DNA of 28,577 nucleotides, taken from positions 1 through 28,577 of the IMG/VR virus record IMGVR_UViG_3300037133_000013, one strand, 5' to 3'. Source of the stretch: a virus. The notes under the pieces were generated by a model. It searched no databases and was not told where the DNA came from. It was given only the letters and a program-made list of their open reading frames with translations. Shown piece by piece: positions 8,447 through 26,419 of the stretch; the stretch's first letter is position 1; each line of letters starts with the position of its first letter. Both the position numbers and the translations under genes were made by a program.

Positions 8447-8703
8447 GCGCGAAAGCCGGCAGGGCAGTTAAACGTTCAATGTGGGAAGAGCACACCGCCG
8501 ACCTCGTCAATCACCCTCAGCACTACACCTTTGGCAAGATCGAGGTTATCGACGCCATCGAGGATTGGCAACTTGGTTTTCATGAAGGCAACGTGGTGAA
8601 GTACGTGGCTAGAGCCAAGCACAAGGGCCGTGAACTAGAGGATTTGAGGAAGGGTGCCTGGTACTTGAACCGTCGCATTAAGAATCTGGAGGAGAAGAGG
8701 TGA
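8443..8703 (+). CDS. DUF3310 family protein
   Basis: An 86-residue protein with the DUF3310 pattern: VNHPQHY near 21-27, an EVIDAIE helix, then GNVVKYVARA and a DLRKGAWYL helix. DUF3310 proteins are common small phage proteins found near nucleotide metabolism and replication genes; their activity is not established, although they are sometimes labelled nucleotide kinases. The GTG start lies six bases after GGAGGAGGA and overlaps the deaminase stop (GTGA). An ATG at 8479 is a weaker alternative. Confidence 0.85.
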   Translation: MSAKAGRAVKRSMWEEHTADLVNHPQHYTFGKIEVIDAIEDWQLGFHEGNVVKYVARAKHKGRELEDLRKGAWYLNRRIKNLEEKR

Positions 8704-9398: not shown

Positions 9399-9402
9399 TG
9401 AT

Positions 9403-10011: not shown

Positions 10012-10135
10012 CTCCCTTCGTTATGATGAGCGATTTAGACGCTTCACACCGGCACAGTTTGGTGAGTGGTATGACCAAGAGCGTGGACGTAAGGAAGTAA
10101 AGACAGCAGCAAAAACCAAAGGAGCTAAATACTAG
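9980..10135 (+). other. Open, protein-like frame without a normal start codon, between MazG-like and methyltransferase genes
   Basis: After the MazG-like stop, the +1 frame is open to a TAG that abuts the methyltransferase ATG. It reads DSLRYDERFRRFTPAQF and continues to a basic end in KTKGAKY. It has no ATG, GTG or TTG. AAGGAGAA at 9992-9998 precedes an ATA at 10004. It may be read from a rare start, joined to the MazG-like protein by a +1 shift at TGA-C, or be a remnant. The overlapping frame 10008-10100 (TTG start, 30 codons) is a less protein-like alternative. Confidence 0.3.
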
Positions 10136-11171: not shown

Positions 11172-11327
11172 ATGACGATCGAGGAACTTCGTCACTGGAT
11201 GACGAAGGTAAGTACGCAGATGCTAGAGCTAATTCTGCTGCAAGGCGATACTGGTAAGCCGAAGTGGTTCACTGCCGAGGTAGAAGCCGAGATACGTCGG
11301 CGCAGGACACTTACTTCAAGGCCCTGA
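11172..11327 (+). CDS. Small unrecognised protein, 51 residues
   Basis: A short gene with a well-formed ribosome site (GGAGG at 11157-11161, ten bases before ATG). It encodes a soluble, probably helical 51-residue protein that begins MTIEELRHWMTKV and ends in an Arg-rich stretch. Its last 17 bases overlap, antisense, the end of the endolysin gene. The ribosome site overlaps the downstream edge of the minus-strand terminator hairpin. I do not recognise it. Confidence 0.5.
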   Translation: MTIEELRHWMTKVSTQMLELILLQGDTGKPKWFTAEVEAEIRRRRTLTSRP

Positions 11328-11874
11328 TCCACCAAGGACCGGGTTGGTCGGCGGTACCCAGGTACCGAGCATCTGACGGGTTAGCCGCGACCACCGCCTG
11401 GTAGTCCGCCAACCGTGCTGCGCGCAAAGCCGCAAGCAGAGCGTCTTGGTCGCAGGCGTTCGCCGCTGCTACCGTCGCCGGTCCCCAGCGCCCGTCTACT
11501 ACGAGCGCACCACCGCAAGCGTTGACGGCTGTCTGCAGCACCTTGACGCCATTGACACCACCACGATTCACGGCGGTATCAAGTACGCGCTCAGCTATGG
11601 CGTCAGAGAGCGACCCTTCCCACGTGTTCCAGAATAGCGTCTCGTAGAATTTCTCCACCGCCGGTCCGCGCTGGTTCTGCGGCAGCGTGGCGATGGCGGC
11701 GAAGTCCGTAGGGAACGCCTTCGAGTTGATTCCTGAGATCGCCCAGGCACCCTGCCACGTCTTGGCGCCGGCCACAACAGCCCACGTTCCTGGCGCGTCT
11801 GGCACCAAGGCGTGGGCTTGCGTGGAATCTTCGTTGGTCATCATGAAGTTAAAGTCAGTGTCGAAGTCCGCCAT
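11311..11874 (-). CDS. GH108-type endolysin (N-acetylmuramidase) with peptidoglycan-binding C-terminus
   Basis: A 187-residue lysin. The N-terminus resembles glycoside hydrolase family 108: the expected catalytic Glu is Glu15 in MTNEDS, followed by a shortened DpGG-like region and AISGINSKAFP (45-55), where the family has xxGI. Residues about 105-187 match the family's peptidoglycan-binding domain: a GVxxLQxAVN helix, then VDGRWGPATVAA, ending in a Trp-Trp-x-Arg-Ala-Leu motif. It cleaves cell wall glycan at lysis. There is no signal peptide, so it needs a holin, and candidates lie upstream. It is the last gene of the leftward operon; GGAG precedes its ATG. Confidence 0.85.
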   Translation of the reverse strand: MADFDTDFNFMMTNEDSTQAHALVPDAPGTWAVVAGAKTWQGAWAISGINSKAFPTDFAAIATLPQNQRGPAVEKFYETLFWNTWEGSLSDAIAERVLDTAVNRGGVNGVKVLQTAVNACGGALVVDGRWGPATVAAANACDQDALLAALRAARLADYQAVVAANPSDARYLGTADQPGPWWIRALK

Positions 11875-11875
11875 A

Positions 11876-12124
11876 CTACACTCCAGGCTTAGAAGAGTTG
11901 ACGAGCGCGGTCAACTCCTCGTCGATCTTGCCTTCAGGGATGAACCACGGCTTGTGTGTGTCGCCAACGGTCAGTGTCAGCTCAATTGGATCGTACACCC
12001 AACTGATCGTGATCCCGCTCTTTGTAGCTGACCCTTCGTTGCCGTTGATGGTAATACCAAGCTGTTGCTGAGCTTTGGCTTCGATGTTAGCTAACCACGT
12101 CGGTGCGATGCCGGTGTAGATCAT
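11876..12124 (-). CDS. Unrecognised small protein in the lysis region
   Basis: An 82-residue protein with an N-terminal helix followed by a strand-rich part (GITISWVYDP, ELTLTVGDT) and a C-terminal helix. It has no signal or membrane segment. Its ATG overlaps the stop of the upstream beta-barrel-like gene by four bases and the endolysin ATG follows two bases after its end, so it belongs to the lysis group. No function can be assigned. Confidence 0.65.
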   Translation of the reverse strand: MIYTGIAPTWLANIEAKAQQQLGITINGNEGSATKSGITISWVYDPIELTLTVGDTHKPWFIPEGKIDEELTALVNSSKPGV

Positions 12125-12699
12125 CGCTGCGCCGCCATCGCACGTCTGGCGATCATCTTCTTGATGGCTACGCTCTGAGACACCTGCGGATTGAAGAAGT
12201 ACGCAATACCGGTCGACATCTCAACGGCGCTCTTCGACCCTACGCGGAGGAAATGCACCGATAGCGCCGACCATTGCAGGTTCGGTGTTGCACGATAAGA
12301 TAAGCCGCCGCCTGCCAAGAACGCCACGTGGTTGCCCGTGGTAAATGTCGACACGCCGCCCGCACCTTGCAAGAACACGCTCAGCGATCCGGCCTGGATG
12401 TTCGTCTTACTGATCAGCGATGAAATGTTCGGCGTAAACTTGACGCCGCCCAGGTAAGCGTTAAACGGTGTAGACACCAGTTGATGCCCCTCAACGTTGA
12501 GGCTGTTACCCTTCTGCGCGCCCCAGTCGATCAGGTCGAAGCTCTCCGTTGTATGCGCCGCCGGTCCCCACGTACCGTTGTAGTTGAGCGCTGTGGCTTC
12601 GGCGGTTGTGGAGAACACGATACCGCCGGTAGTTGGTGCCTGGGCTGCTGCTGTGATGGCCAGGGCCAGAATTGCGATGAATGACAGGATGGTTCTCAT
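12121..12699 (-). CDS. Secreted, outer-membrane beta-barrel-like protein
   Basis: A 192-residue protein with a clear signal peptide (MRTILSFIAILALAITAAAQ, cut after Ala-Ala-Ala or next to it). The mature part has alternating hydrophobic residues and Gly/Ser turns, and a near-terminal strand ending in aromatic residues (GIAYFF), as in outer-membrane barrels. After that comes a basic tail. AAGGAG precedes the ATG. It sits between the papain-like protein and the endolysin, so it might affect the outer membrane during lysis or block further infection; both are inference. Related sequences occur as bacterial surface proteins, so a host origin is possible. Confidence 0.6.
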   Translation of the reverse strand: MRTILSFIAILALAITAAAQAPTTGGIVFSTTAEATALNYNGTWGPAAHTTESFDLIDWGAQKGNSLNVEGHQLVSTPFNAYLGGVKFTPNISSLISKTNIQAGSLSVFLQGAGGVSTFTTGNHVAFLAGGGLSYRATPNLQWSALSVHFLRVGSKSAVEMSTGIAYFFNPQVSQSVAIKKMIARRAMAAQR

Positions 12700-12731
12700 T
12701 TGGTCTCCTTGCTCAGGGGTTGATACTACGT

Positions 12732-13475
12732 TTACTTAATAACCGCGAGATCAGCCTGCATTCCTGCAAGGTCGAATCCCGAAGGCGTTTTGTTATTATG
12801 AATCCACGTGGCGAGCAAGAGCGCGTGCGCCTCGTCTACGAACTGCGTCCAGAATGCGGCGCTCATGCGGTACAGCTTGCCCCATGAGATGCAGGTAAGC
12901 GTCCCGTCCGCATCGTACTTAGGCACAAAAACGCAATGGCCCCCGATGATGGTGTTGTCGCCGTTCACGTCCCAAAGCGCTGTGGGGTCGTCTGCGCTGT
13001 CCATGACGCTCTGAGGAACATTGAAGCCGATGTAGACCCCAGAAAACAGATTGATGGCCTGTTTGATTTGGGTCATGTTACTCACAACCGGATCAGCAAA
13101 CCCCAACAGATGATGACCGCCAAGGTTCGACTTGCGCCAGTCATTCAGCACATCGAGTTCGACGCCGCCATTGTCGGTTGACGGATCGCCGGGAACGTAG
13201 CCGTCCCACGCTGAGTATGCGGATTCAATCACCTTGTCAGCCAGCGTCTCATAGTTGAAGTCGTAGCCCACATTCAGGCCGCAGACTTGGACCGCATGAG
13301 CGCACCCGGCGATGGTGCAATCTCCAAGCGAATCGTTGAGCATCGTGCCCCAGTTCGTCTCGCCTTTCGTCCAGTCGCAGGAATCAGGGGGCAAAGGAAG
13401 GGCTGCGGTGTACTTCGCCATCTTGAGCGTGCGGGAATCCGTCTTAACGGCCTTGCGGCCTAGCATATAGTTCAC
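12732..13475 (-). CDS. Papain-like cysteine peptidase family protein
   Basis: A 247-residue protein with a C1-like layout: Leu-Gly-Asp-Cys53-Thr at the start of a helix (candidate nucleophile), Gly-Gly-His180-Cys on a strand, and Ser-Trp-Gly (197-199), where papain-like enzymes have the Asn/Trp-Gly part. I have seen similar proteins near phage lysis genes. Peptidoglycan or protein cleavage is possible but unproven. The GTG start overlaps the upstream stop and follows GAGGAGAC; later Met codons at residues 4 and 19 are weaker. It has no signal peptide, which fits a late cytoplasmic or virion role. Confidence 0.6.
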   Translation of the reverse strand: MNYMLGRKAVKTDSRTLKMAKYTAALPLPPDSCDWTKGETNWGTMLNDSLGDCTIAGCAHAVQVCGLNVGYDFNYETLADKVIESAYSAWDGYVPGDPSTDNGGVELDVLNDWRKSNLGGHHLLGFADPVVSNMTQIKQAINLFSGVYIGFNVPQSVMDSADDPTALWDVNGDNTIIGGHCVFVPKYDADGTLTCISWGKLYRMSAAFWTQFVDEAHALLLATWIHNNKTPSGFDLAGMQADLAVIK

Positions 13476-13846
13476 TGCTTCGTCTCCTCAACGGTAATTA
13501 CCGGCGGATGCTTCTCTGCGCCAGCCTGCATCGCGCCTGGCATCGGCGGCGCCACGAGACCCTTATAGGCGGCCTGTTGTAGCGCCCACTGCTGCGCGAA
13601 TCTAGCCGCGGCATGCAGCAGATTGACTGCCGTAAGCCCTGAGATTGTCAGCACCCCTGTTGCGTGGTCGAAGCTGACCAAGATACCGACCGAACTCAGG
13701 AGTGCAATGGCCGCTCCCATGAACCGATTAAGCGCCTGGGTCTCAACCGTCAGCCAAGGAAAGAACTTGCTCTGCTTTAACCACTGCAGCGCGTAGGTGG
13801 AGATTAGTGCCAATGCGAACTGATCGCCTAGGGCGGTATCTTGCAT
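13472..13846 (-). CDS. Small membrane protein, candidate holin
   Basis: A 124-residue protein with one clear hydrophobic segment (about 42-60, MGAAIALLSSVGILVSF) and weaker ones at 12-22 and 66-82, then a hydrophilic Pro-rich tail. AAAGGAG stands five bases before ATG. Its place upstream of the endolysin, with a second small membrane protein next to it, suggests a role in forming the lysis pore, but the sequence matches no holin family I know. Confidence 0.55.
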   Translation of the reverse strand: MQDTALGDQFALALISTYALQWLKQSKFFPWLTVETQALNRFMGAAIALLSSVGILVSFDHATGVLTISGLTAVNLLHAAARFAQQWALQQAAYKGLVAPPMPGAMQAGAEKHPPVITVEETKQ

Positions 13847-13860
13847 AGAAGCTCCTTTCG

Positions 13861-14151
13861 TCAGTGGTGCATAGCCATGTTAAGTGCCCAGCCCAGGAAG
13901 CCGCCTATCAGCAAGAAGGCAGCTGCAAATCCTAACGTTCTGAATTGCCAAAGTTCCAGGGCAGTAACACGCTTGGTAAGGTCGGCTAACACACTGGTAC
14001 GCTCTACTAATACGCTAAGCTGCTTGTCGATTGCCGTTAGCAGCCTACCGTGATCCTTCAACGTAAGCGCTTGGTCTTCTTCTCTAAGCACCGTGAGCGC
14101 GGCAATTGATTCCGCCAACTTGTTGATTGATAGAACTTCTGCAGACTCCAT
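13861..14151 (-). CDS. Small coiled-coil protein with C-terminal membrane anchor, candidate holin or spanin-like
   Basis: A 96-residue protein. Residues about 1-65 form a Leu-rich heptad-like helix; residues about 70-90 are a transmembrane helix (GFAAAFLLIGGFLGWAL) with a short tail. I chose the ATG at 14151, which has AAAGGGACGG upstream, over the GTG at 14181. The anchored coiled coil resembles the small proteins that many tailed phages carry beside holins. The pair with the 124-residue membrane protein points to lysis; the exact role is not known. Confidence 0.6.
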   Translation of the reverse strand: MESAEVLSINKLAESIAALTVLREEDQALTLKDHGRLLTAIDKQLSVLVERTSVLADLTKRVTALELWQFRTLGFAAAFLLIGGFLGWALNMAMHH

Positions 14152-14216
14152 CTCACCGTCCCTTTGTATATATCCCGACACCGCTTAGCACATGGCGGCC
14201 TGCCTATTACTGGAAC

Positions 14217-15173
14217 CTAGCCGGGGTTGTGGCCGTAAAATGCTACGATGTTAGCTTGCAGAGCAGCATCCTCCGCGTCGGTAGTAACCGCTGCCGAAAT
14301 GCCGCCCTCGATGAAATTGATGGGTGAGTTTGACGCATCTCCGCCGGCACCTAAAGATAGGCCGCCCTCTAAATTCAGAACGGTATAACCTGGCGGCAAC
14401 GGACCGCTATAGAGCGTGACCAACTTACCCTGAGTGGCGTCACCTGACTTAAGCGTCATGGTCCCAGTAGTAGGGTCGTACTTGCCTAGGATGGTCAGAT
14501 ACTTCGCAGTTGGTGTCGGGCCGTATCCCCACACGCCGAGTTCAAGGTCAATTCCAGGCCATGGGCCGGTGCCGCTTCCTTCTACACCCATACCGCCAGT
14601 GCTCCACGCAAGGCCGAACATATAGCCCTTTGGACCACCTCTCTGCGGAGATTCTCCGTCATTGTAGCTACCGCAGCACCCAGACACTTCGCCACCCTCA
14701 GATGTGTCTTCGACGATCATATACATAGAGATTGCGACATTGCCGATAGGCAAGGTTCCGAGCGCAGAAAACCCTGGGTTGCAGCAGGCTCCCATGTAAT
14801 AGCCTTCGCCGGGGACGATTCTGGCCACGGTGATCGTGACTCCGCTAGGCGGTGTCGTCCAGCCTAGCGGCGCGGGTTTCCTTCCATACGCTCCATTAGG
14901 CACTAAGTTGTTTCCTAGTGCGGCGGTGCCCATCTGGTCATAAATTTCTGCAATGTCTGTCCCTGTAAGTTGGTAGAAACTTCCTACGTAGAAAGCTAGG
15001 GCCGGCCGCGCCAGATTATGCGCCGCAACACACGGTCCCCAGACGTCACACGGACCTTGATAGGCGACAATAGACATCGGGGTCACCGTTAACGCCGTAG
15101 GCGGCAATGGTTGGGCGCAACCCAGTGGCACGGCTAGAAGCGCGGCCGTAACGGCTAGTAGTGTGCGCCTCAT
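14217..15173 (-). CDS. Secreted GH54 alpha-L-arabinofuranosidase-like catalytic domain
   Basis: A 318-residue protein with a signal peptide (MRRTLLAVTAALLAVPLGCA). The rest resembles the catalytic domain of fungal GH54 arabinofuranosidase B: GPCDVWGPCVAAH (40-52), the adjacent Cys166-Cys167 pair (GH54 has a vicinal disulphide here), GPWPGIDLE with Glu211 at the nucleophile position, LGAGGDASN with Asp279 at the acid position, and INFIEGG (285-291). The arabinose-binding CBM42 of fungal enzymes is missing. It may remove arabinofuranose from host surface or environmental glycans. The ATG overlaps the upstream stop by four bases, within the fibre cluster, so a receptor-processing role fits (inference). 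Confidence 0.8.
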   Translation of the reverse strand: MRRTLLAVTAALLAVPLGCAQPLPPTALTVTPMSIVAYQGPCDVWGPCVAAHNLARPALAFYVGSFYQLTGTDIAEIYDQMGTAALGNNLVPNGAYGRKPAPLGWTTPPSGVTITVARIVPGEGYYMGACCNPGFSALGTLPIGNVAISMYMIVEDTSEGGEVSGCCGSYNDGESPQRGGPKGYMFGLAWSTGGMGVEGSGTGPWPGIDLELGVWGYGPTPTAKYLTILGKYDPTTGTMTLKSGDATQGKLVTLYSGPLPPGYTVLNLEGGLSLGAGGDASNSPINFIEGGISAAVTTDAEDAALQANIVAFYGHNPG

Positions 15174-15637
15174 CGTCTGGCCATCACCTTCAACTTGATT
15201 ATCGACGGTTTATCGACTGACGCCGTTGCGGCGTCGGAGGTGAGAACCGGCGCGATGGGTACCAGGGCCGCCGTAGCCGGCGCGCGGCTAACGATATAGG
15301 TGTAGCCGGAGGCTCCAGTCCAAGAGAGCGATGCGATTGGAAGCGTCGCGGTGATGACTACCGGGCCGGCCACGTTCGACGGCAAACTAACCTGATAGAC
15401 CGTCGCCGGTGATATGATTGCCCAAGACTGAACGACGTAGCACCAGTTGCCCACTCCAGGCGTATCAGCGTAGGTGGTGCCTGTGATCGACGCTGCCGTA
15501 TTATTGTTCGGGGCGGCGTTCAACGGCGTATAGACGCCGACAGCGGGGCATGTAGCTACTGTCGGGGTTGGTGGAACCTGTGCGTGACATCCGACGGCCA
15601 GAAGCGCAGTGGCTGCAACTGTGAATAGCTTGTTCAT
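15170..15637 (-). CDS. Secreted Ig/fibronectin-like protein
   Basis: A 155-residue protein with a signal peptide (MNKLFTVAATALLAVGCHAQ; Ala-Val-Gly-Cys could also act as a lipobox). The mature part is strand-rich and Thr/Ala/Val rich; the segment SWTGASGYTYIVSRAPA resembles a fibronectin type III strand pair. Two Cys residues near 34 and 67 might form a disulphide, in keeping with export. AAGGAGA precedes the ATG, which overlaps the previous stop. It is probably an adhesion or surface accessory of the fibre cluster; no precise function is visible. Confidence 0.6.
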   Translation of the reverse strand: MNKLFTVAATALLAVGCHAQVPPTPTVATCPAVGVYTPLNAAPNNNTAASITGTTYADTPGVGNWCYVVQSWAIISPATVYQVSLPSNVAGPVVITATLPIASLSWTGASGYTYIVSRAPATAALVPIAPVLTSDAATASVDKPSIIKLKVMARR

Positions 15638-16350
15638 GCTCTCATCTCCTTGCGTCTCGATCTTTCGTCAATCCAGCAGGGTCCTGATAAGTCGTCCAAG
15701 CTGGAACGAATGAAACCTGGAAAACCAAAAACTGGAGTTACCCAACTGATCGTAACGGTGCCGTCTATTCCCTGCCCACCGTTGGTGCCCCTGCCCCCAT
15801 TTGCACTACCGCCGTCACCACCGACGCCAAGTGTTATGGTCCACGTCGCTCCGGGAACGCTCGATACGGCGCCGGTTCCATAGTCGCCGTTGCTTCCTGT
15901 ATTCGCCGTCGCTGCGCCAAACCAACCACTGCCTCCACTGCCGCCACTGGAGCCCCCGTACGTTGTGAACGTCAAACCGATTCCTATATTCGATCCATGC
16001 TGACTCCCATTGGAATCTACCGAGCCGCACCCTATACTTGACCCGCCGCCAGACGCACCACCGCCGCCGCCGCCGCGGACCTCTAGGCTCAATCCACTAC
16101 TAGTTATCGTCGTGGTGAACCCGTAGCCTCCATTTGAGCCGTCTACCGATATTTCACAGTCGCCGCCCCCGCCCCCTCCGCCGCCAGCACCGTTCATTGT
16201 CACCGTAACCGAGGTTACTCCGGCAGGAACCACCCAATATTGGGTGTAACCGGCCCCCGATGTGAAGGTGCAGGGGCTAACTGTGCATAAAGCGAATGAC
16301 TTCGTCGTGAAGCACAGCGCGATTGTTAGCAGAAAAATTGCTCTACGCAT
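15634..16350 (-). CDS. Secreted glycine-rich adhesin-like protein
   Basis: A 238-residue protein from the ATG at 16350 (GGAGG seven bases upstream, TGATG overlap with the fibre stop); a GTG 21 bases earlier would mask the signal peptide MRRAIFLLTIALCF..SFA. The mature part starts with WVVPAGVTSVTVTMNGAGG, the motif of phage glycine-rich tail domains, followed by three Gly-rich blocks with runs up to eight Gly. Such poly-Gly regions build the receptor-binding tip of T-even gp38 adhesins. It lies directly after the large fibre and so may be its tip or helper. The last 25 residues are charged and unlike the rest. Confidence 0.75.
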   Translation of the reverse strand: MRRAIFLLTIALCFTTKSFALCTVSPCTFTSGAGYTQYWVVPAGVTSVTVTMNGAGGGGGGGGDCEISVDGSNGGYGFTTTITSSGLSLEVRGGGGGGASGGGSSIGCGSVDSNGSQHGSNIGIGLTFTTYGGSSGGSGGSGWFGAATANTGSNGDYGTGAVSSVPGATWTITLGVGGDGGSANGGRGTNGGQGIDGTVTISWVTPVFGFPGFIRSSLDDLSGPCWIDERSRRKEMRA

Positions 16351-19307
16351 CAGTTCGCCTCCGCCGTCCACGGCTTGTGCGGCCAGGTGATTGTGACCAT
16401 CTGGAGGTTGCTGGTTCCATTTCCTAAATCTCCCTGCGCGCTTATCTGAAAGTTGATAATACTACCAGCCGAACACCCCGACATCGTAGTTGAATTTAGC
16501 TGCAACGTCTGCGTATACGGAGTATTGGCTGTGCTGCCCGTAGTTGTGGTAGAGAACGTCTGAGCCGCAAGCCAACTAGGATCGTCGGTGGTCGAAGAAC
16601 ACGCGCCTTGAATCGAGTAGATGATCGGTTGTCCTGAAGATGAAGTTGCTTGTGTAAAGTTCACACGCACGTATGGATACTGGGATGTATCCCAATCTCC
16701 GGGAACCTCGTCTTGGAACTGTGCGGAACCTCCGCTGGCCCCATTGAATTGCAGGTAACCTGTTTGTACGTTGCTACCAGTACGACACACCGCGGTGGGG
16801 TTTGTATAACCAGAGAGAAGCGTAAGTCCGTTGCCGGCCGTTCCATTGTTGCAGTTCGCCGGCACTATCTTCTCTGGCAGCCACGCATCTGGAGGTGAAC
16901 CACTGAGCTGTGAGTAAGCGACTTGGGCGCAAGTTGGCGCGGTACCATTGGCGATGGCATCGACATACTGCCCTGACGTACACGTGCCTGGGCCGGGCCA
17001 AGATGACGACGTTGGTATGGTTGGTGGGCCGGTGAGCAGTGAGTATGGAATGCTTCCGGTGCTTAGAGTACCAACTCCCGTGATCCCTGTGTACGAGCCG
17101 CTGATCCTTCCGGAAGCCACAGTTCCACTCGAAAGGTTATTGGCATTACTGGCGTAAGTTTGGGCGTTAGACTGAGCCGTAGCTGCGGAGCCGCTAGCAT
17201 CATAGGCCGTTGATGCTGTGAACGCCGCGGAGCCGAACACGCCGCCAGATACGGTGGTGAGGCTCGATAGAGTCGTAACACTCGACGTCACGAATGATGA
17301 TGCCTTGTAGCCGCTGTCTAGTATCGTTGTGCAGCCGGTGTTGCCGCAAGATGCGAAGTCGTTCACCGTGGAACTGCTGCCGCCTGGGCCGGTAACGGGG
17401 TTGGTCAGCGCGTTCTGCTTTCCGTTCCAATTACTTTGATCCGTCGTCGTCGGCATGTAATAACCTGCCGCGGCCGAGGCAGTGATGGATGTGGAACCAG
17501 ATCCGGAAAGAATGCCACCCAGTGTGATGGTCTGATTGCCGGTGAGGTACGTCGTGGTGCTAAGTGCGAAGGTGCCTGCGGCCGTCATCGTCACGAATGG
17601 CGTACCCGTTGACCAGACCGGGTAGTTCAAAGCAGCCCAGGTCCCTAGCGTCGGAGGACCGCTGAGTTGAGAGTAGGCTATGGTTGCGCAGTTAGGCGCA
17701 GACCCGTTTGTTAAGCCGTTTACATACTGACTTCCAGAGCACGATCCGGCGTTAGGCCAGCTAGATGACGTCGGCACGGTCGGAGTACCGGTAAGCTGGC
17801 TATACGGCAGTGAGAGACCTGACAACGTATTCAGCGTCGAGTTACTAGAGGCGCTAATGTTGCCGACGGTAAGGCTCGAGGCCGCAACGTTAGCCAGTGT
17901 ACCAGAGGCATTGGTGAGTATGTAATTATTGGTGCCGCTTGCGATGGTGGTGGTGCCTACCGTGATGGACCCGGCCGATGCCGAGATCGTGCACGTCCCG
18001 CCCAGGGCGCAGGTCTGCCCGTTGACGGTCGTCGACGTAGCCGGCGTGCCGGTGAGCTGGCTGTATGCGATGGAAAGACCGGATATAGCCAGGTTGCCCA
18101 GCGTTCCGGCGTTGTTAGAAAGCAGGTAACCAGACGTGCCGCTGGCTACGCTCGTTACCCCGACACTGACGGTGCCGGCCGACGCCGTGATGGTGCAGGT
18201 TCCGCCTAGAGCACAGGTCTGCCCATTGACGGTCGTTGACGTAGCCGGCGCGCCGGTGAGCTGCGAGTATGGCAGCGACAACGCCGAGAGCGTCGTCAAC
18301 GTCGAGTTGCTCGATGCCGTCACGTTGGCCGCGGTGCCGGTGGTACTCTGGTTCCACGTCGGAACTGAACCCCCAAGCTGTGCGTACTGCACCACCGCAC
18401 AGGTGATTCCACTGGTGGTCGTGCCGGTACCGTACTGCCCAGACGTGCAGCTGCCGGTCGCGGCAGGTGAGTAGCCGATCGTACCCTGCTTACCGTTCAG
18501 TTGCGTCTGAATGGACGACGTGGCGTCCAGGTAACTCATCGTCGTCGGCGTTACGCCGTCGATGGTGATCCCGGTCAAGGTTGCAGGCACGTCGGCATTT
18601 ACCAGGTATCTAAATCCTGGGGTCGTGGCTGAACCCGTAGCTGGGCCGGCGAGGAACTGATTAGCCAGTTGGTTGTTAATACTAAAGACCTGCGAACCAG
18701 AGGCACTGAGTGTCGACGGCGTGGCCGTCATGAACGACGGAACCGTCCAGGCGATACTGCCGACGCCGCTGCTAGCACCAGTGAAGGTGCATGTCGTAGT
18801 GGTGCAACTTACGCCAGAACCAGAGAAGGTAAAGGCTCCAGCGGTTCCGTTGATCTGCGTCACGCCAGACGAGGTACTGGTAACCCAACCGGTGGGCGTG
18901 CAAACGTACTGTGCACTGTGCGTGGTGTCCGTATAGGGCCGTCCCAGCGGGTAGAAGTCCAGCGTGACGCCGGTGTTGCTAGCCGTAGCGTTAGCCGTCA
19001 GAGTCACCTGCACCGATACTGTGTTCACCGCACTTACTGTGGTACTGGACGGTATGCCGGTCCCAGTCACTAGTAACCCTGGCACTAGGCCCGCCACGCT
19101 AGCCACCGCCACATTAGGACTGCTTAGCACCGTGGTGCCAGTAGTGACGTACGGGCATGTCGCGCTCGACGGTACACCAGCGCCGGTAGCTTGATACCAA
19201 TTAACTTGCGTCACCGGGTTAACCTGCGACGCTTGGCCATAAGCAAACGTCGCAGTAAACAGGGGCAGTGCTAAACTAAACAGAGTAAAAATATGCCGCA
19301 TAGACAT
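16350..19307 (-). CDS. Large repetitive tail-fibre-like protein with signal peptide
   Basis: A 985-residue, Ser/Thr/Gly-rich protein. The N-terminus is a clear signal peptide (to about residue 26, YGQA), which is odd for a phage fibre. The body holds repeats typical of trimeric fibres: (I/L)(A/P)YSQLTG-TP modules, two 68-residue units sharing TTVNGQTCALGGTCTI (DNA copies 204 bp apart, around 18010-18060 and 18214-18264), and two SSWP..G.C.(S)GQYV units. The C-terminal 150 residues are non-repetitive and could be the binding head. GGGGGA precedes ATG 19307; ATG 19301 is possible. It overlaps the upstream gene by 32 bases. Confidence 0.8.
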   Translation of the reverse strand: MSMRHIFTLFSLALPLFTATFAYGQASQVNPVTQVNWYQATGAGVPSSATCPYVTTGTTVLSSPNVAVASVAGLVPGLLVTGTGIPSSTTVSAVNTVSVQVTLTANATASNTGVTLDFYPLGRPYTDTTHSAQYVCTPTGWVTSTSSGVTQINGTAGAFTFSGSGVSCTTTTCTFTGASSGVGSIAWTVPSFMTATPSTLSASGSQVFSINNQLANQFLAGPATGSATTPGFRYLVNADVPATLTGITIDGVTPTTMSYLDATSSIQTQLNGKQGTIGYSPAATGSCTSGQYGTGTTTSGITCAVVQYAQLGGSVPTWNQSTTGTAANVTASSNSTLTTLSALSLPYSQLTGAPATSTTVNGQTCALGGTCTITASAGTVSVGVTSVASGTSGYLLSNNAGTLGNLAISGLSIAYSQLTGTPATSTTVNGQTCALGGTCTISASAGSITVGTTTIASGTNNYILTNASGTLANVAASSLTVGNISASSNSTLNTLSGLSLPYSQLTGTPTVPTSSSWPNAGSCSGSQYVNGLTNGSAPNCATIAYSQLSGPPTLGTWAALNYPVWSTGTPFVTMTAAGTFALSTTTYLTGNQTITLGGILSGSGSTSITASAAAGYYMPTTTDQSNWNGKQNALTNPVTGPGGSSSTVNDFASCGNTGCTTILDSGYKASSFVTSSVTTLSSLTTVSGGVFGSAAFTASTAYDASGSAATAQSNAQTYASNANNLSSGTVASGRISGSYTGITGVGTLSTGSIPYSLLTGPPTIPTSSSWPGPGTCTSGQYVDAIANGTAPTCAQVAYSQLSGSPPDAWLPEKIVPANCNNGTAGNGLTLLSGYTNPTAVCRTGSNVQTGYLQFNGASGGSAQFQDEVPGDWDTSQYPYVRVNFTQATSSSGQPIIYSIQGACSSTTDDPSWLAAQTFSTTTTGSTANTPYTQTLQLNSTTMSGCSAGSIINFQISAQGDLGNGTSNLQMVTITWPHKPWTAEAN

Positions 19308-19674
19308 TGTCCCCCAAGTTCGTTGGCGTGGCGAGCGTGACCAGGTTGCCAGTTACGCTGTAGTCTACGCCGTAGCGCAATAACAATCCGTTGACGGTAA
19401 ACTGCAGCATGACGGCTGGTGTCGGCACGTGGCTCAGCGTGTAGACCGTCCCCGGCACCGCACCGGTCGGTGTCTCAGCTGTGGATGGCGGCAGCACGAA
19501 GTTACCGGCGTTGCCGGCCGTGAGTACGCCCACGCTCAGGGCCGGTACCGTTATCTCACCGCCGAAGATCAGGTCTAGTCGGTTCCAGTTATAGTTCGTC
19601 GGAACCTGCCAGTTGGCTTGGTCGAAGGCTGCGATCTGCAGGCCGATATTCGGTGTTGTGGTCTCGCTCGGCAC
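19276..19674 (-). CDS. Short tail-fibre-associated protein
   Basis: A 132-residue protein with no signal peptide. It begins with a hydrophilic segment (SETTTPNIGLQIAAFDQANW) like the N-termini of phage fibre connectors, then a strand-rich domain ending in VYAAYFYSV. The GTG start at 19674 lies five bases after the previous stop. Its position between two fibre genes suggests a fibre adaptor or chaperone. I cannot name a family. Confidence 0.6.
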   Translation of the reverse strand: MPSETTTPNIGLQIAAFDQANWQVPTNYNWNRLDLIFGGEITVPALSVGVLTAGNAGNFVLPPSTAETPTGAVPGTVYTLSHVPTPAVMLQFTVNGLLLRYGVDYSVTGNLVTLATPTNLGDNVYAAYFYSV

Positions 19675-19678: not shown

Positions 19679-20674
19679 TTAGTACCCCCACTCTGTCCAA
19701 GCCACCAAGGTCAGTGGATTAGTGTCTGTTCCCACGTCAGTCTGTACCTCGTAGTACCAACCGGGCGGAACGATGAACGTCACTCCGGCGTAGCCGGGGC
19801 CGTTGGTGACTGAGTTAGCTGCCACCGGGTTAGATGCTGAGCCTGATCCGATGTACGCCACCGCACTAGCGTTGTGCCCGACGCCCAAATTCAGACTGCC
19901 GTATACGCTCACCGTTCGTGGCGTCGCGTCGGTATTCTGATACTGCGTGCCGAAGGCCCTCGACCCAGTAACGAAGCTCGGTGTCACGCCCGAGATGCCA
20001 GGAGCCGGTACGTAGCTCGTGCCATTGCCGGTGAGCACCTTGCCACTCGGTGCTGCTCCGGCCACGGTCAGCGTCAGAGCATTGACGGCCGACCCGGTTA
20101 GACCATTGACTGAGACAGCCGGACCAACGGCGTCCAGGTTACCGGCGGCGTCAGCTTTGAACAGTTGACAACTTAGTACGCCTGCCGCTGAGTCGGGCTG
20201 TGCGCCGCCATTGACGTTGCCCGGAAAAGTTACCACGCGGCTGCCGGTGCCGTCCTGCACCCAGATGAGACCGACGATTTGCCCCGGTGTCTGGCCGCTG
20301 ATAGTGAAAGCTGTACTGGCGCCAGAGAGTGTGACTTGAAAACCACCGTACTTCGCGGCGTTGAACACCGGTGTGGAGGTCCACGGCACACTTTGCAAAC
20401 CGATCGGTACGTCGGCCGTGGTGAGTAGGTTCGCCATCACAGCGGTGAGCGTAGCCAAGTTCGAGTCTAACGTCGTGAAGCCCTTGGTGGCCATCATCTG
20501 CATCAAGGCGTACACACCACCAGCGACTTGATAAAGCGTCTTATTGGCAGAAGGACTGGGCCAGAGGGCATCCACACCAGCGCCGCCGGTGCGTGTAGCA
20601 TCCACTAAGTACGCAGAATCACTTTCCTGGTTAGCTTGCGACGGGTTGAACGGGAGGAAGTTTGTAGAACCCAT
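19679..20674 (-). CDS. Tail fibre protein
   Basis: A 331-residue fibre. The N-terminus (LPFNPSQANQESDSAY, then RTGGAGVDALWPSP and NKTLYQ) is the type that many phages use to attach a fibre to the baseplate. The C-terminal 90 residues (TQYQNTDATPRTVSV ... VTFIVPPGWYYEV ... WTEWGY) match a common fibre head domain. The middle is Gly/Ser/Val rich. The ATG directly follows the upstream TAA. It probably acts in host attachment. Confidence 0.85.
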   Translation of the reverse strand: MGSTNFLPFNPSQANQESDSAYLVDATRTGGAGVDALWPSPSANKTLYQVAGGVYALMQMMATKGFTTLDSNLATLTAVMANLLTTADVPIGLQSVPWTSTPVFNAAKYGGFQVTLSGASTAFTISGQTPGQIVGLIWVQDGTGSRVVTFPGNVNGGAQPDSAAGVLSCQLFKADAAGNLDAVGPAVSVNGLTGSAVNALTLTVAGAAPSGKVLTGNGTSYVPAPGISGVTPSFVTGSRAFGTQYQNTDATPRTVSVYGSLNLGVGHNASAVAYIGSGSASNPVAANSVTNGPGYAGVTFIVPPGWYYEVQTDVGTDTNPLTLVAWTEWGY

Positions 20675-21313
20675 TTAGATCGCCCACTTTCCTACGTCGA
20701 AGCCGGCGACGTATGCATTGTTGAGATCGAAACCAAAGGCCGGAAGCTCTGGGAAGGCGTACGTATACTCAACGCCCTCAGGACGTGGAACGATGTAGCC
20801 GTTGGTGACGAGGTCCTGGATTATGGAGGTGAAGCTGCCACTGAGCAGGATGGTCGCCGTCATGTTCTGATTGTCGGCGATGATAATACCGCCAGCCGGA
20901 AACAGGTATTTCCAGATGAAGTAGAGACTGGTAATCGTGCCATCCCACTGATTCTGCGCGATCTTAGCCTTGATGTAGATTCGGTAGGTGTCATCATCCA
21001 GAACCGGGCTGACCCCGTTAGACGGCTGAAAACCTACCGTCCGCGAGGCACCGGCGATAGCGCCCAGTGCGTCTAGTTGCGGCCCAACGGCTGAGTCAAG
21101 ATCGAAAGCTGTGTCGAAATTTACCAAGCACTGTGAGACATCGTCAAACTTCTTCAGCAAGACGTAGAGGAGCGCATTCAGCTTTGGGCTACTCGGAGCC
21201 TGGTACTGACTCGTCAGCAGCTGCTGGTAGTAGCCGATGGGCAGGGTCTCGATGGGCTCGTTACCGTAGCCGCCCTGCCCGTAGCCGCTTGTTCCGTATC
21301 CTGGGTTCGGCAT
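20675..21313 (-). CDS. DUF2612 baseplate protein (P2 gpI-like position)
   Basis: A 212-residue protein with the DUF2612 pattern: a YYxxLLTSQY segment, FDLDSAVGPQLDALGAIAG (about 69-87), DDDTYRIYIKAKIAQNQWDGT, and a C-terminal half with FDVGKWAI. DUF2612 proteins sit next to baseplate J genes in contractile phages and join baseplate to fibres, as P2 gpI does. The Gly/Tyr-rich first 20 residues are low in complexity. The start follows two bases after the J gene's stop. Confidence 0.85.
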   Translation of the reverse strand: MPNPGYGTSGYGQGGYGNEPIETLPIGYYQQLLTSQYQAPSSPKLNALLYVLLKKFDDVSQCLVNFDTAFDLDSAVGPQLDALGAIAGASRTVGFQPSNGVSPVLDDDTYRIYIKAKIAQNQWDGTITSLYFIWKYLFPAGGIIIADNQNMTATILLSGSFTSIIQDLVTNGYIVPRPEGVEYTYAFPELPAFGFDLNNAYVAGFDVGKWAI

Positions 21314-21315
21314 CG

Positions 21316-22785
21316 CTACACCGCCGCCACTACAACGTTTGCTAGCACACCCTGCGCAGCTTGGTAGAACAACAGACTCAGGTCGGACGTTCCAGCCGGT
21401 TGCACGGCGGTGATGTTAACGTAGCCGCCAGTTCCTGATCCGCCCGACACGGAGATGGCACTAGCTACCGCGTAGCCGGCGCCAGCACTGGTAACCTGTG
21501 GATTGATGCCCGTGATCACGCCAGAGCCGTTAACGCTTGTAACCGTAACGGTACCACCTGCGCCGCCTGCTACCGTCAGCACATCATTTACCGCGTAACT
21601 GGTGCCAGCGGATGTTCCAGGCACTACGGTAAAGAGCCCGGTAGCCGTGGTGTTGAGTGTGACGGCCTTAATACTGAACTCCGGCTGCGAATCGTTGGGC
21701 ATCACACTGCCAGCCGCGATGTAGAGAGAAGAGTAAACCACCTCCTCGCCTATCGCAAGCGAGTTGAGATACGCCACCAACGCCGCCTGTACCGCAGCTA
21801 CGGTAGCTGTGCTGAATCCTGTGAGGCCGTGCAGATACATGCCGATGAACGGCGTAACGTAGCCCGGTCGATAGAAGCTGATCGTTTCTTGGTACCCGGT
21901 ATTCGGGTCAGTCACCAGTGAAGACGTGGTACCATTGGTGAGGCAACCGATGGTCTTCTTAAGGTAGATACTCAGAGCCACCGCGGCGTCCGTGCCACCC
22001 TCAGCTACGATGGTAATGGAATGCGCCGGGTTAGTCCAGTAGTCTGCGGCACCAGTAGGATTCTCAATGGAACTGCCAGGACCACCAGGCGTAGGATAAC
22101 CCGGTGCTACGCGCGTCACACCTGGCGTAGCTAGCACAGCAGCTACCGTAGCTGCGATCGGTGTCAAGGCTGGCAACGCTACACTGATAGCTTGCCGCGC
22201 GCGAAGGTTGCTATCTGGCTCCACTGGGTCACCAGCCACCGCTGCCGAGGCATTAGTAACGCTTGACCAGGTGCCGGATGGGCCGCTAACGGGGCTTGCG
22301 ATGATGTTGATGGTGCCCGGTTCTGCCGTAATGTTTCCGGGCGTGGTGCAGGTAGCGGTAACGACCACGCTACCGCCTACGATGGTCGTCGGCGACGGCA
22401 ATGCCCAGAGATTCCCTACTTGGTCTTGTGCAAAACAGTTCACCAACTGCAACCCGGCTGTGCCCACGCAGGTGAGAGGCGCCGTGGAGTAGGTAAACGG
22501 CAGCCTGACTAGGCCATTCATCTTCACAACGCGGTCAAGTCCGGCACCTACAGCTGTGAACGGCGAACTTTGATTGTAGTCAAGCTGCAAGGCATTGTTC
22601 TGATCAGCTTGTTTAAGGCTCAGGATGCTCAAGAGTTGGTAAATTGCGGCGTCTGGAGCCACATACTGATTCTGGCCATAGATGTTGAGATACGCGCTTA
22701 GATTGTCTGCGAATATGCTAGCGTAACTAGCGACCGTCAACCCGGCCGGGCCTACGAAGGGCGGCACATAAGGAGGTGTGGACAC
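21316..22785 (-). CDS. Baseplate J-like protein (gp47/gpJ family)
   Basis: A 489-residue baseplate wedge subunit. The central block is typical: VVVTATCTTPGNITAEPGT, then NASAAVAGDPVEPDSNLRAR, followed by a VLATPGVTRV segment. A C-terminal insertion of about 90 residues (from about 385) is rich in Gly/Thr/Val and contains two similar VTxAGAGYAV / TVAGGAGGTVTV stretches. It is probably an extra surface domain. Proteins of this family form the iris of contractile baseplates, which supports a contractile tail. The start is GTG 22785 with AAAGG farther upstream than usual. Confidence 0.9.
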   Translation of the reverse strand: MSTPPYVPPFVGPAGLTVASYASIFADNLSAYLNIYGQNQYVAPDAAIYQLLSILSLKQADQNNALQLDYNQSSPFTAVGAGLDRVVKMNGLVRLPFTYSTAPLTCVGTAGLQLVNCFAQDQVGNLWALPSPTTIVGGSVVVTATCTTPGNITAEPGTINIIASPVSGPSGTWSSVTNASAAVAGDPVEPDSNLRARQAISVALPALTPIAATVAAVLATPGVTRVAPGYPTPGGPGSSIENPTGAADYWTNPAHSITIVAEGGTDAAVALSIYLKKTIGCLTNGTTSSLVTDPNTGYQETISFYRPGYVTPFIGMYLHGLTGFSTATVAAVQAALVAYLNSLAIGEEVVYSSLYIAAGSVMPNDSQPEFSIKAVTLNTTATGLFTVVPGTSAGTSYAVNDVLTVAGGAGGTVTVTSVNGSGVITGINPQVTSAGAGYAVASAISVSGGSGTGGYVNITAVQPAGTSDLSLLFYQAAQGVLANVVVAAV

Positions 22786-22805
22786 TTTGGTTCAAGCCGC
22801 CTTTC

Positions 22806-23198
22806 TCAGCTTACACTGGCGATGACGGCGCCGAGCGCCGGAACGTTGCTTATCGTGACTGGGCCGTAGATAGTCTGCACGTTCGCCGTGTATGACAATT
22901 GCCCGTTGATGAAACTGACCTCGACATTAGTAACTGCCGTAACGTACGGCGTAAACCCGGTAATGTTCTGCTGTATGGCCAGTTGCATCGCCCGCAGCCC
23001 GCGCTGACTACCGAGTTGCCCCAGCATCTGCTGGAACACCGGCAAACCTAGGTTCAAATTTTCCCACCACTCACCCAAGAACAGTTGAAGTCTGGTCAAT
23101 ACCGCCTGGGCTACAGCGGCGCCGTTCGTCAGCGACGTACCGTCGGCGAAGATGGGGTCGTTCTGCGCATCGAGTTGAAGGTAAGCTATACTGGCCAT
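22806..23198 (-). CDS. gp25-like baseplate wedge protein
   Basis: A 130-residue protein with the gpW/gp25 layout: an AVAQAVLTRLQLFLGEWW segment (about 28-45), then LGLPVFQQMLG, and a strand-rich C-terminus. T4 gp25 homologues start sheath assembly in contractile tails. It lies between the spike and baseplate J genes, its normal place. AAAGGACAG precedes the ATG. Confidence 0.85.
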   Translation of the reverse strand: MASIAYLQLDAQNDPIFADGTSLTNGAAVAQAVLTRLQLFLGEWWENLNLGLPVFQQMLGQLGSQRGLRAMQLAIQQNITGFTPYVTAVTNVEVSFINGQLSYTANVQTIYGPVTISNVPALGAVIASVS

Positions 23199-23199
23199 A

Positions 23200-24048
23200 T
23201 CACTGTCCTTTCAGGACCGTGGTTTCACAGCCCGTCAACGGAATGGCTGGGCCTACGTAACCTTTGCCAACCAGGAATGGCTGAATATTCGTCTTGTACC
23301 ACTGGTAGAAAGTGTCTGTCATAAGTGCTTGTGGCGTACCAGCGTCGGCGTTGGCATTGACGGCCGGGGCGGTAAGTTGGATAGTGGCACCGGTGGTCAC
23401 CGTAACGCCATCTGTTTGCGAAACGTCGATGACTGTAGTTCCGTCGTCACTGCGAATCTGAAGCGAGTCGGCGGAATAGCCCGTCAATAAGTTCTTCTGG
23501 CTCCACAGGCCTGGGTAGAAGCCGCAGTCATGCACGTAATGCCGACGTACCTCGTTTTGCCGCTGCGACCCTGATGACGCGCCGGTGTTGGCGGCCACCG
23601 GACTGTTGGTCTGGCCGTTGACCCACCAGTTGTCAATACAAGCGTCGCAGAAGATTACCATGCCCTCGTCACCCTTCTTCAAGGGCAATGTAACGGAGTA
23701 GCCGCCGCCGCGTGGGGTCATGATGGGAACATGCACTATCGGCGGAACGTCCCACCACTGCAGTACCTTGGGCGGCGGTCCACCAGCGGCTGCAGCCTTG
23801 GCTAAGGTGGCTGTGTTTGCCGCCGACGTTGCTTGTGGAACCACTCTCACTCGCTCTTGGATGGCCAGCTGTACCGTCACCGTCTGCTTGTCCGCGTTTA
23901 AGTCTTCAGTCAAGAATCCCGGGCAGGCGCAGCGCGTATCAGCCAGCGCTCCGCGTAGCAGTTCACGCCACTGCGCGCTTTGAGCCGCGATGACCTGACC
24001 TGGCGTGAGCGCGTAAAGCGGATTAGGACCTGGCGAACTGCTTCCCAT
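23200..24048 (-). CDS. Gp138-type baseplate spike protein
   Basis: A 282-residue protein with a Gp138 N-terminal domain. The order is: tVTVQLAIQERV, a WWDVPPIVHVPIMTP segment, GGGYSVTLPLKKGDEGMVIFCD, then the RxHYVHDCGFYPGL motif (about 168-180). Next is a beta-helix-like stretch (SLQIRSDDGTTVIDVSQ, GVTVTTGATIQLTAP). It forms the central spike that pierces the host surface. It contains several Cys residues. GGAG lies seven bases before the ATG. Confidence 0.85.
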   Translation of the reverse strand: MGSSSPGPNPLYALTPGQVIAAQSAQWRELLRGALADTRCACPGFLTEDLNADKQTVTVQLAIQERVRVVPQATSAANTATLAKAAAAGGPPPKVLQWWDVPPIVHVPIMTPRGGGYSVTLPLKKGDEGMVIFCDACIDNWWVNGQTNSPVAANTGASSGSQRQNEVRRHYVHDCGFYPGLWSQKNLLTGYSADSLQIRSDDGTTVIDVSQTDGVTVTTGATIQLTAPAVNANADAGTPQALMTDTFYQWYKTNIQPFLVGKGYVGPAIPLTGCETTVLKGQ

Positions 24049-24051
24049 AAA

Positions 24052-25110
24052 TTACTCCGTATAAAGGTTCAAAAGGTTTTGCGCATAAGCTGTCGAGAAT
24101 CCAGTCACTTCGGTCTGCCACTCGTTGCCGCGCGTATCGCCAGAGTGCCGCACCTGCGCTACGAAGAAAGTGAGGTTGCTCTGCAGCGCCGTCGGCAACT
24201 CACTATTCGGACTGGGCGTGCGCTCTAGTTGACTGATCTGAGTACGCACGAGTTGCACCAACAGCGGCGGCAATTGCACCTGAAGGCGCGGGTCTAACAA
24301 CACCGTGAACGTTACCCCTTGCTGAATCTGCTGCGGCGTGCCAATGATGCTCTGGTTAGTACCCGTCGGCAGTCCACTAGAGTTCCCGGTGCTTCCTGGT
24401 GGAAAGGCCGGGCTGTAGATGAGGTCAGGTTGCGCGCCACCACTGCCACCAGAGTCAACCTCACTGATGTAGGTCTTGAGACCGTTAGTCCAGGTCTGCA
24501 CCACATTGTCATCCGCGATCTGCGCGAAGTACTTGCTCACCTTACCGAACACCGTGTTACCACGCGGATACTGCGTGGCAGTCATACGCTGCGCAGCCAC
24601 CGGCCCTTGCGTGCCGGCTTTGACGCTCACCGCGGGCAAGTTTGTTTCGCTGATCATGCGCGCAACCAACTGCTGTTGACTACTGAACTGGCCCATGGAA
24701 AAGCCGACGATATCCGTCGGTGACACAGCGGGGAACACAACACAATGCAGCGTCAACTTCTGATCAACCACGGCCTCACGGGTATACAGCACCTGGAACA
24801 CCGGCCCATTCCAGATGATTGAGGACACTTGCGCGCCAAACTGAAAGCCAGCCTTCAACGTAGCCCATGTAGCATTCAGGGCGATGTTCTGCGCCGTTTG
24901 ATCGTCCAGGTTGTAGATAGAAATATCGGCGTACCACAGCGGCGAGGTATTCATAGCCTGCAGCACGTCGAACGTGATTCGCAGGGCCTCTGGTTCCCAA
25001 GTGTTAGAGCTAATAGTCGTGCTCTGCGAACCACCACTAACAGTCGCACAAGTGATGCTAAGTTCCCAAGCCTGACCCCATAGCGGCGTTCCAGATGACG
25101 GTGAACTCAT
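24052..25110 (-). CDS. Baseplate hub protein (gp27-like)
   Basis: A 352-residue protein. I set the start at ATG 25110, which overlaps the plug gene stop (ATGA) and has GGAGA about ten bases upstream; ATG 25128 has no ribosome site. The first 130 residues (ALRITFDVLQAMNTSP, ADISIYNLDDQT, VLYTREAVVDQKLTLHC) show the strand pattern of gp27/gpD-type hub domains. A 40-residue Gly/Ser/Pro-rich linker follows near 220-260, then a C-terminal strand domain. It should carry the spike encoded by the next gene. Confidence 0.75.
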   Translation of the reverse strand: MSSPSSGTPLWGQAWELSITCATVSGGSQSTTISSNTWEPEALRITFDVLQAMNTSPLWYADISIYNLDDQTAQNIALNATWATLKAGFQFGAQVSSIIWNGPVFQVLYTREAVVDQKLTLHCVVFPAVSPTDIVGFSMGQFSSQQQLVARMISETNLPAVSVKAGTQGPVAAQRMTATQYPRGNTVFGKVSKYFAQIADDNVVQTWTNGLKTYISEVDSGGSGGAQPDLIYSPAFPPGSTGNSSGLPTGTNQSIIGTPQQIQQGVTFTVLLDPRLQVQLPPLLVQLVRTQISQLERTPSPNSELPTALQSNLTFFVAQVRHSGDTRGNEWQTEVTGFSTAYAQNLLNLYTE

Positions 25111-25445
25111 GGAACGTTGTCTCCCCATACTAGCGTAAATTGCGGCAAGTTAGACTGCCCCGGATAATCGGCTGATGAGTCACTCGTATTCAGCAGGTAC
25201 GCGCTTCCGATCTGAAGGTACTGGTACTGAGCAAGCAGGTTCGCAGCTGGGTACTCCCCAGTGATCAACGGCACACTGCCGATCAGCAAGTTACCGTTCA
25301 CATCAGACACCGACATCTGCCAATAGCCGGCCATGGCGGCGTAAGATATGCCAAGGTTCAGGGTCAAGGGCTGCCCGTTCACCGTCAACTGTACGGCGAA
25401 AGTCTGGTTATTGGCCGTGGTCAGCGGCACCGTCTGATTGCTCAT
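25107..25445 (-). CDS. Baseplate plug protein (Pam3 gp18-like)
   Basis: A 112-residue strand-rich protein. The pattern VPL..ANNQTFAVQL, LNLGISYAAMAGYWQMSVSD, NLLIGSVPLITGEYPAANLL and the final QFTLVWG fits the small plug domain described in cyanophage Pam3. This plug sits in the simple contractile baseplate. It lies between the Dit-like and hub genes, as expected. The ribosome site is weak, so it may be coupled to the gene before it, whose stop is two bases upstream. Confidence 0.75.
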   Translation of the reverse strand: MSNQTVPLTTANNQTFAVQLTVNGQPLTLNLGISYAAMAGYWQMSVSDVNGNLLIGSVPLITGEYPAANLLAQYQYLQIGSAYLLNTSDSSADYPGQSNLPQFTLVWGDNVP

Positions 25446-25447
25446 AG

Positions 25448-26410
25448 TTATGGTGGCCCCATATAGCCCGGAAGAGTTAGCTGTCCCGGTATGCTGGAAA
25501 ACAACCCCGCGCCATTTACGACCGGCACCACACCACCTGCCATGCTAATAGCTGGCTGCTTTGCCAATGAAGCGCCCTCGGTCGCTAATGGCGTCGCGAA
25601 TTGTCCGGCAGTTACTGCCGACAACGCCCCAGAGTTTACCTGCCCCAAACCAGTTTGCTGCGTCGCGTCAGGTCTGGCGCTAACCGCGCTGAGACTAGCT
25701 ATTGAAGCACTGCCGGTAACCGACGTAGAAGTTGTCGCCGTGAATATCTGCTCGAACTCGATGCGCATCTTCAAACCGGCGATGGTCTTGAAGTCCTCGC
25801 GCGGACTGATCGAGGTGATAAGCATATTGGTGTAAGTGCGCAAACGCGTGGTAACGGTAAGCGGCGACCGCGCAGCTTGCAGGGTGATCATCGTCTGATA
25901 CGCGTTGACGCTTTTGCTAGTGCTGCTACCGCTGAAGGGTGCTGCCGTGTCCGGTGTCGCACTGGTAGTGCTGGCGTTGTTAGCACCACTAGCGTACGCG
26001 GCCATGGCATCACTCATGCCGATGTACATCATGACGCGCGGCGGCATGAGGTAGGCGTGGCTGCTAAGATTGGCGCCGGTCTGGACAGGGTGGCGCGTCT
26101 TTTCCAGCCGCTGCTCATGCTCCAATTCCAGTACCGCGTCAAAAACGTAAGTTGTAGGAGCGCTACCACTACCAGTTATCGCGCCAGGACCACCGCCAAG
26201 TGTACCAGCTAATGGACCGGTGGCAGGCACCTCCGTGCCTGGTACGTAGTTACTAGCATTAACCGGCAGTGCCGCTGGCGAGAGGCTGTTGGTAGAACCT
26301 TGTACCGGCACCACAGTGATGCTGACCATAGCCGGCCCAGAGGACCACTGTGGCGGGCGATAACCGATGGCGGCGGCCTGACTAGAGGCTGCTGACGCTG
26401 CGCTGCCCAT
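25448..26410 (-). CDS. Dit-like tail/baseplate hub protein
   Basis: A 320-residue protein. Residues about 88-230 carry the Dit-like pattern: VFDAVLELEHEQRLEKTRHPV, a NLSSHAYLMPPRVMM strand, then RLRTYTNMLITSISPREDFKT and LKMRIEFEQIF. The flanks (1-85, 230-320) are Ser/Ala/Gly-rich and low in complexity. Dit-like proteins join tail tube and baseplate hub. GGAGG precedes the ATG. Confidence 0.8.
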   Translation of the reverse strand: MGSAASAASSQAAAIGYRPPQWSSGPAMVSITVVPVQGSTNSLSPAALPVNASNYVPGTEVPATGPLAGTLGGGPGAITGSGSAPTTYVFDAVLELEHEQRLEKTRHPVQTGANLSSHAYLMPPRVMMYIGMSDAMAAYASGANNASTTSATPDTAAPFSGSSTSKSVNAYQTMITLQAARSPLTVTTRLRTYTNMLITSISPREDFKTIAGLKMRIEFEQIFTATTSTSVTGSASIASLSAVSARPDATQQTGLGQVNSGALSAVTAGQFATPLATEGASLAKQPAISMAGGVVPVVNGAGLFSSIPGQLTLPGYMGPP

Positions 26411-26419
26411 GTCGACCTC

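Follow-up and report, generated by a model that had tools for sequence, protein, structure and literature searches.

One integrated relative ties a large group of uncultured soil phages to Acidobacteriota, and this group appears to send its tail fibers through the host's Sec system. In the window (a whole IMG/VR record of 28,577 bp, which is a fragment of a contractile-tailed phage), five late proteins start with signal peptides. The largest of these is well supported, on sequence and modelling grounds, as a modular tail fiber. Export of the signal-bearing proteins, and their folding outside the cytoplasm with disulfide bonds, are also well supported by several features of their sequences.

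Layout of the late genes

The + strand of the window encodes nucleotide metabolism and DNA methylation. The late genes are on the - strand, in the order tape measure (with an SLT domain), hub, baseplate wedge, DUF2612 protein, GSTN, NIGLQ adaptor, the block with signals, and endolysin. The features that matter here (all on the - strand, with the predicted cleavage site marked by ^) are:

20675..27982, - strand: tail module without signals (DUF2612 tail protein, baseplate J/wedge, hub, tape measure with an SLT domain, and others)
19679..20674, - strand: GSTN, a baseplate-distal protein of 331 amino acids, no signal
19276..19674, - strand: adaptor of 132 amino acids (NIGLQ domain and beta domain), no signal
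16350..19307, - strand: tail-fiber-like protein of 985 amino acids, signal MSMRHIFTLFSLALPLFTATFAYG^QASQVNPVTQVNW
15634..16350, - strand: Gly-rich adhesin-like protein of 238 amino acids, signal MRRAIFLLTIALCFTTKSFA^LC
15170..15637, - strand: putative Ig/Fn3-like exported protein of 155 amino acids, signal MNKLFTVAATALLAVGCHA^Q
14217..15173, - strand: GH54 alpha-L-arabinofuranosidase catalytic domain of 318 amino acids, signal MRRTLLAVTAALLAVPLGCA^Q
13472..14181, - strand: two small proteins with hydrophobic segments (124 and 106 amino acids), no cleavable signal
12732..13475, - strand: cysteine-protease-like protein of 247 amino acids (phrog_19005), no signal; inside the interval, outside the exported set
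12121..12699, - strand: predicted outer-membrane beta-barrel of 192 amino acids, signal MRTILSFIAILALAITAAA^Q
11311..11874, - strand: endolysin (PG_binding_3, phrog_315), no signal

The first four signal-bearing genes are contiguous. Overlaps of 4-32 bases join them to one another and to the tail genes, which suggests that they share one late transcript. The original prediction placed all five signal-bearing genes in one cluster. The signals are there, but the genes are not contiguous: the signal-less genes for the 106-, 124-, and 247-amino-acid proteins lie between the GH54 gene and the barrel gene. The two smaller proteins are likely to be holin- or spanin-like. The 247-amino-acid protein is conserved beside the lysis genes, both in several of these phages and in Komagataeibacter phages.

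Elsewhere in the window (4556-10936), a single cluster contains a dCMP deaminase gene and a pair of dissimilar genes of the thymidylate-synthase type, and it is flanked by DNA methyltransferases. Modified-base chemistry is possible there.

Signal peptides and their start codons

We called signal peptides with a hand-made sequence rule, not with SignalP. When the 34 main ORFs of the window were taken at their longest starts, five passed, and these are exactly the five proteins that had been claimed to begin with clear export signals. All five have a charged n-region, a hydrophobic core, and a cleavage site of the A/G-x-A/C type.

Ribosome-binding-like sequences lie just 5' of the signal starts for the fiber (GGGGG), the 155- and 192-amino-acid proteins (AAGGAG), and the Gly-rich protein (GGAGG). 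(The site for the GH54 gene is weaker.) Given the upstream GGAGG, the start of the Gly-rich gene should be the ATG at 16350, which gives 238 amino acids, and not the GTG at 16371. We also looked for starts downstream of the signals. In the window's fiber gene, no in-frame start codon follows the signal ahead of the conserved mature motif; across the group, 25 of 38 testable genes likewise have no alternative start before the motif. On the basis of this start-codon test and of counts at three offset limits (see below), we rejected overlong ORF calls as the source of the signals. We considered whether the 155-amino-acid protein might be a lipoprotein, with AVGC as an alternative lipobox; that box is non-canonical.

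The signal recurs in related phages

Alignment of the NIGLQ adaptor yielded 74 viral loci, or 56 once near-duplicates were removed. Among these 56, the first fiber gene after the baseplate could be scored at 49 loci, and it carries a signal at 47 of them. Depending on the start-offset limit, the rule was passed by 42/49, 45/49, or 47/49 fiber genes versus 4/352, 4/352, or 7/352 upstream genes (Fisher p < 1e-44). The upstream genes that pass include two long fiber-like genes (in L055 and L073). L044 fails the rule, with a start that was called far upstream; its signal, MLKKLTVLLAVLFATTLACA, is found 209 codons after that start. L028 fails as well, and its start (MKLLYTMLLFLSFIRIGGCQTRIDP) looks signal-like on inspection.

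GSTN provides a second and independent anchor. With this anchor, the first large gene has a signal in 26 of 30 cases. As for the exceptions, L122 and L153 have signals at later starts; the first gene in L150 is the adaptor, and the next gene has a signal; and in L154, the signal is on a following gene of 1,061 amino acids.

The fibers occur in two architectures. In the first, a signal-less adaptor (mostly 126-135 amino acids) is followed by a signal-bearing fiber, whose mature protein starts with, for example, Q-INPVTQINWP. In the second, the signal is directly ahead of an NIGLQ fiber of several hundred to about 1,800 amino acids. PNIGL starts at mature residue 6 in 12 of 20 proteins with the second architecture (range 4-11) and near residue 8 in the signal-less adaptors. 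Because this position is alike with and without a signal, the signal looks like a removable piece that was added ahead of a complete protein. (A large relative, G397, of 69.6 kb, has a signal-first NIGLQ fiber of 1,541 amino acids; this is in L203-L206.)

Searches of cultured phages with a related fiber (from L068), with its N-domain, and with its GSTN protein found no match. As a control, we applied the rule to genes after baseplate J in cultured phages, and 4 of 50 passed. One of these is the tailspike of Burkholderia phage BgManors32. Of the other three, one looks like an endolysin whose N-terminus is a signal, one probably has a wrong start, and one seems to be a small unknown protein.

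Cysteines are consistent with oxidative folding

A sequence rule alone cannot separate a signal from an anchor. The N-terminus might stay uncleaved and form a helix for packing or membrane interaction in a virion protein that is made and assembled in the cytoplasm and is not exported. But several observations make this quite improbable.

First, there is a cleavage motif, and the spacing between the predicted cleavage site and the start of the conserved fiber domain hardly varies. Second, cysteine makes up 1.81% of the mature signal-bearing proteins versus 0.72% of the upstream proteins (2.5-fold, p = 2e-28). Third, cysteine counts are even (and non-zero) in 52 of 63 exported proteins, as compared to 96 of 228 upstream proteins (p = 6e-9) or 18 of 43 tail-region genes from cultured phages (p = 2e-5). 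Given the comparison with cultured phages, we rejected the idea that high or even cysteine counts are a mere property of fibers. Within the window, the exceptions are the Gly-rich protein, with an odd number of mature cysteines (5), and the barrel, which has none. Fourth, the NIGLQ domain also occurs without any hydrophobic segment. Finally, the GH54 protein, which is a free enzyme, has the same kind of signal.

The signals themselves diverge but remain hydrophobic, while the mature N-domains of the fibers are 38-72% identical and have two invariant cysteines. The signals very probably work and are cleavable.

The large protein resembles a tail fiber

The window's fiber (with 20 cysteines) consists of the signal, a mature N-domain (predicted to begin at Q25) with the invariant cysteine pair, a shaft of YSQLTG repeats, and a C-terminal head (about 747-985). 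The first 150 residues are conserved across phages, but the shaft is not. The head is 85% identical to that of another phage with a differing shaft. The gene is in the tail operon, directly after the baseplate genes. In three relatives (G398, G399, and G400), the exported fiber is the sole long fiber candidate in the late region.

Structure predictions, which were made for monomers, give a similar picture. The model of the mature N-domain (mean pLDDT 79) has 22 matches among phage tail and virion proteins at E <= 0.001. The best match is to a tail collar protein of a Bordetella phage (E = 1.3e-7), and a virion structural protein of Synechococcus phage S-PM2 is also matched; matches in the PDB are weak. 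The model of the adaptor, whose first half is low-confidence, is weakly similar to the N-terminal domain of CBA120 TSP4 (E about 0.01).

Pfam and PHROG scans of the window's fiber found no family, and most of the other exported fibers had weak or no family matches in domain scans. One exported fiber of the group ends in a tailspike domain, K1-lyase_C, with a score above the cutoff. The original prediction had suggested that the large protein may not be a virion fiber. The tail-protein-like fold of its N-domain, the swapped head, and the position of its relatives as the only long fiber candidates argue against this.

The GH54 enzyme, the barrel, and the Gly-rich protein

The GH54 domain is matched by Pfam with E = 3e-30 (105.7 bits versus a cutoff of 25). 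The catalytic Glu and Asp align with those of AkAbfB, where we take them to be the nucleophile and the acid/base, and the vicinal cysteine pair is retained. AkAbfB (PDB:1WD3) and the window protein share the catalytic domain, the Glu and Asp, and the cysteine pairs, but the window protein is a catalytic domain only and is phage-borne.

The 192-amino-acid barrel has no Pfam match. It is 29% identical to an OMP_b-brl protein from an Acidobacteriota host, and this host relative alone matches the OMP_b-brl profile; we leave the window protein outside that family. Barrels of the lambda Lom type are small, signal-bearing outer-membrane proteins that are encoded near tail genes. The window's barrel is also small, signal-bearing, and near tail genes, which we take as a lead only: it has no sequence family match, and the nearest protein in this comparison is the Acidobacteriota one. 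Queries of viral contigs with the GH54 enzyme and the barrel found no match. A signal-bearing homologue of the barrel, with 61% identity, did emerge when we read the whole of a relative (G398). The Gly-rich protein is 72% identical to its counterpart in L045, which also has a signal.

It had been suggested that the block consists of host surface genes that were captured by the phage. This could describe the GH54 enzyme, whose relatives, mostly with signals, occur in 10 of 396 Acidobacteriota genomes, and the barrel, given its similarity to the host protein. It does not suit the fiber: the set of fiber, adaptor, and GSTN is nearly absent from host genomes, and it recurs in the same order in dozens of phage contigs. 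For the block, we consider capture to be very improbable.

Link to Acidobacteriota

The alignment of the NIGLQ adaptor matched no host genome. The alignment of GSTN matched just 1 of 84,980 genomes. The match is to a prophage that sits in a Bryobacterales MAG and is flanked on either side by host genes. This prophage has the adaptor, but its fiber lacks a signal, which is a clear exception. (Its GSTN gene is also immediately preceded by a GIY-YIG-like gene on the other strand, in L086:9225-11732.) The N-domain of the fiber has weak matches in 6 of 396 Acidobacteriota genomes, and more distant prophages in this phylum have signal-bearing genes in their tail regions. Given one flanked prophage and the more distant prophages, Acidobacteriota hosts are likely. 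In one Acidobacteriota prophage (L169, in G340), several successive signal-bearing genes lie beside collagen-like fibers that have no signals.

A proposed route for the fibers

We propose that a contractile-tail operon ends in this block, which serves receptor binding and lysis. The host Sec system would export the fiber and its partners, and late in infection, fibers would accumulate in the periplasm and fold oxidatively. Tails without signals, bearing the NIGLQ adaptor and GSTN, would be built in the cytoplasm. Once holin and endolysin open the cell, fibers and virions would mix, and the N-domain of the fiber would dock on the baseplate adaptor, so that infectivity is acquired outside the cytoplasm. 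The role of the GH54 enzyme might be to help progeny escape from host polysaccharide, and that of the small barrel to modify the host envelope late in infection; neither need be part of the virion.

We give roughly an even chance to this reading, in which the fiber folds oxidatively in the periplasm and attaches at or after lysis while the GH54 enzyme and the barrel act on the envelope or polysaccharide. That the particle comes from two compartments, with cytoplasmic tails and Sec-exported, disulfide-bonded fibers that are joined at or after lysis, has a chance just short of even. Attachment to virions outside the cytoplasm is a step that we infer. The fibers or spikes of T4 and P22 attach last and can attach in vitro, so a late docking step is plausible. 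A point against our model is that in the first architecture, the adaptor is cytoplasmic, so the exported fiber must meet it later.

The main rival is that the signal-bearing proteins act off the virion. They could be secreted depolymerases, adhesins, or decoys that alter the host surface, prevent superinfection, or loosen the matrix for progeny, and the receptor binder of the virion would then be GSTN or the adaptor. This may well hold for the GH54 enzyme and the barrel, which may act off the virion: the same set includes a free GH54 enzyme without fiber parts, and a barrel. Also, two to four signal-bearing genes often occur in a row in these loci, and some of the exported proteins carry carbohydrate-binding domains. 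Nevertheless, off-virion action seems rather unlikely overall, because of the fiber architecture, the virion-protein-like fold of the N-domain, the swapping of heads, and the lack of any other long fiber in the late regions that we read. Free fibers at lysis would presumably also compete with the phage's own progeny.

Comparison to known systems

To our knowledge, tail fibers and tailspikes are made and assembled in the cytoplasm and have no signal peptide, and tailed phages assemble all parts of the virion there. The fibers that we describe are like those of other Caudoviricetes (CBA120 TSP4, the phi92 endosialidase, and AP22 gp54) in their position after baseplate J/DUF2612, their modular N-domain, shaft, and head, the tail-protein-like fold of the N-domain, and, in one relative, a tailspike domain. 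They differ in having a Sec signal and high, even cysteine counts.

Export of a late phage protein via the host's Sec system is already known from signal-bearing endolysins (fOg44 Lys44, and SAR endolysins; PMC6116005). In those systems the cargo is a lysis enzyme, whereas here it seems to be a fiber module, and the endolysin of the window is signal-less. What appears to be new is the presence of signals on the fiber module. In the open-access literature, we found no report of signal peptides on tail fibers or of such two-compartment morphogenesis, an absence that counts as weak evidence.

If the fiber export signal is indeed lineage-wide, it would break the rule of cytoplasm-only assembly. 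It would also explain the use of disulfide-stabilised adhesins by phages, and the host's Sec and oxidative-folding machinery would join the determinants of phage infectivity. A signal peptide encoded immediately behind the baseplate genes could also serve as a simple sequence mark of receptor-binding proteins in soil phages that lack cultured relatives.

We detected no relation between the window's fiber and the tailspike of BgManors32 (L186:10188-12143; UEW68612.1), which matches phrog_32740 with E = 5e-34. That tailspike does have a signal-like start, MKKIVFTLTAAFALLFSFVPRVAVA^QFVPGQ, with Gln26 as the predicted mature N-terminus, and as a cultured phage, BgManors32 offers a direct test of fiber export.
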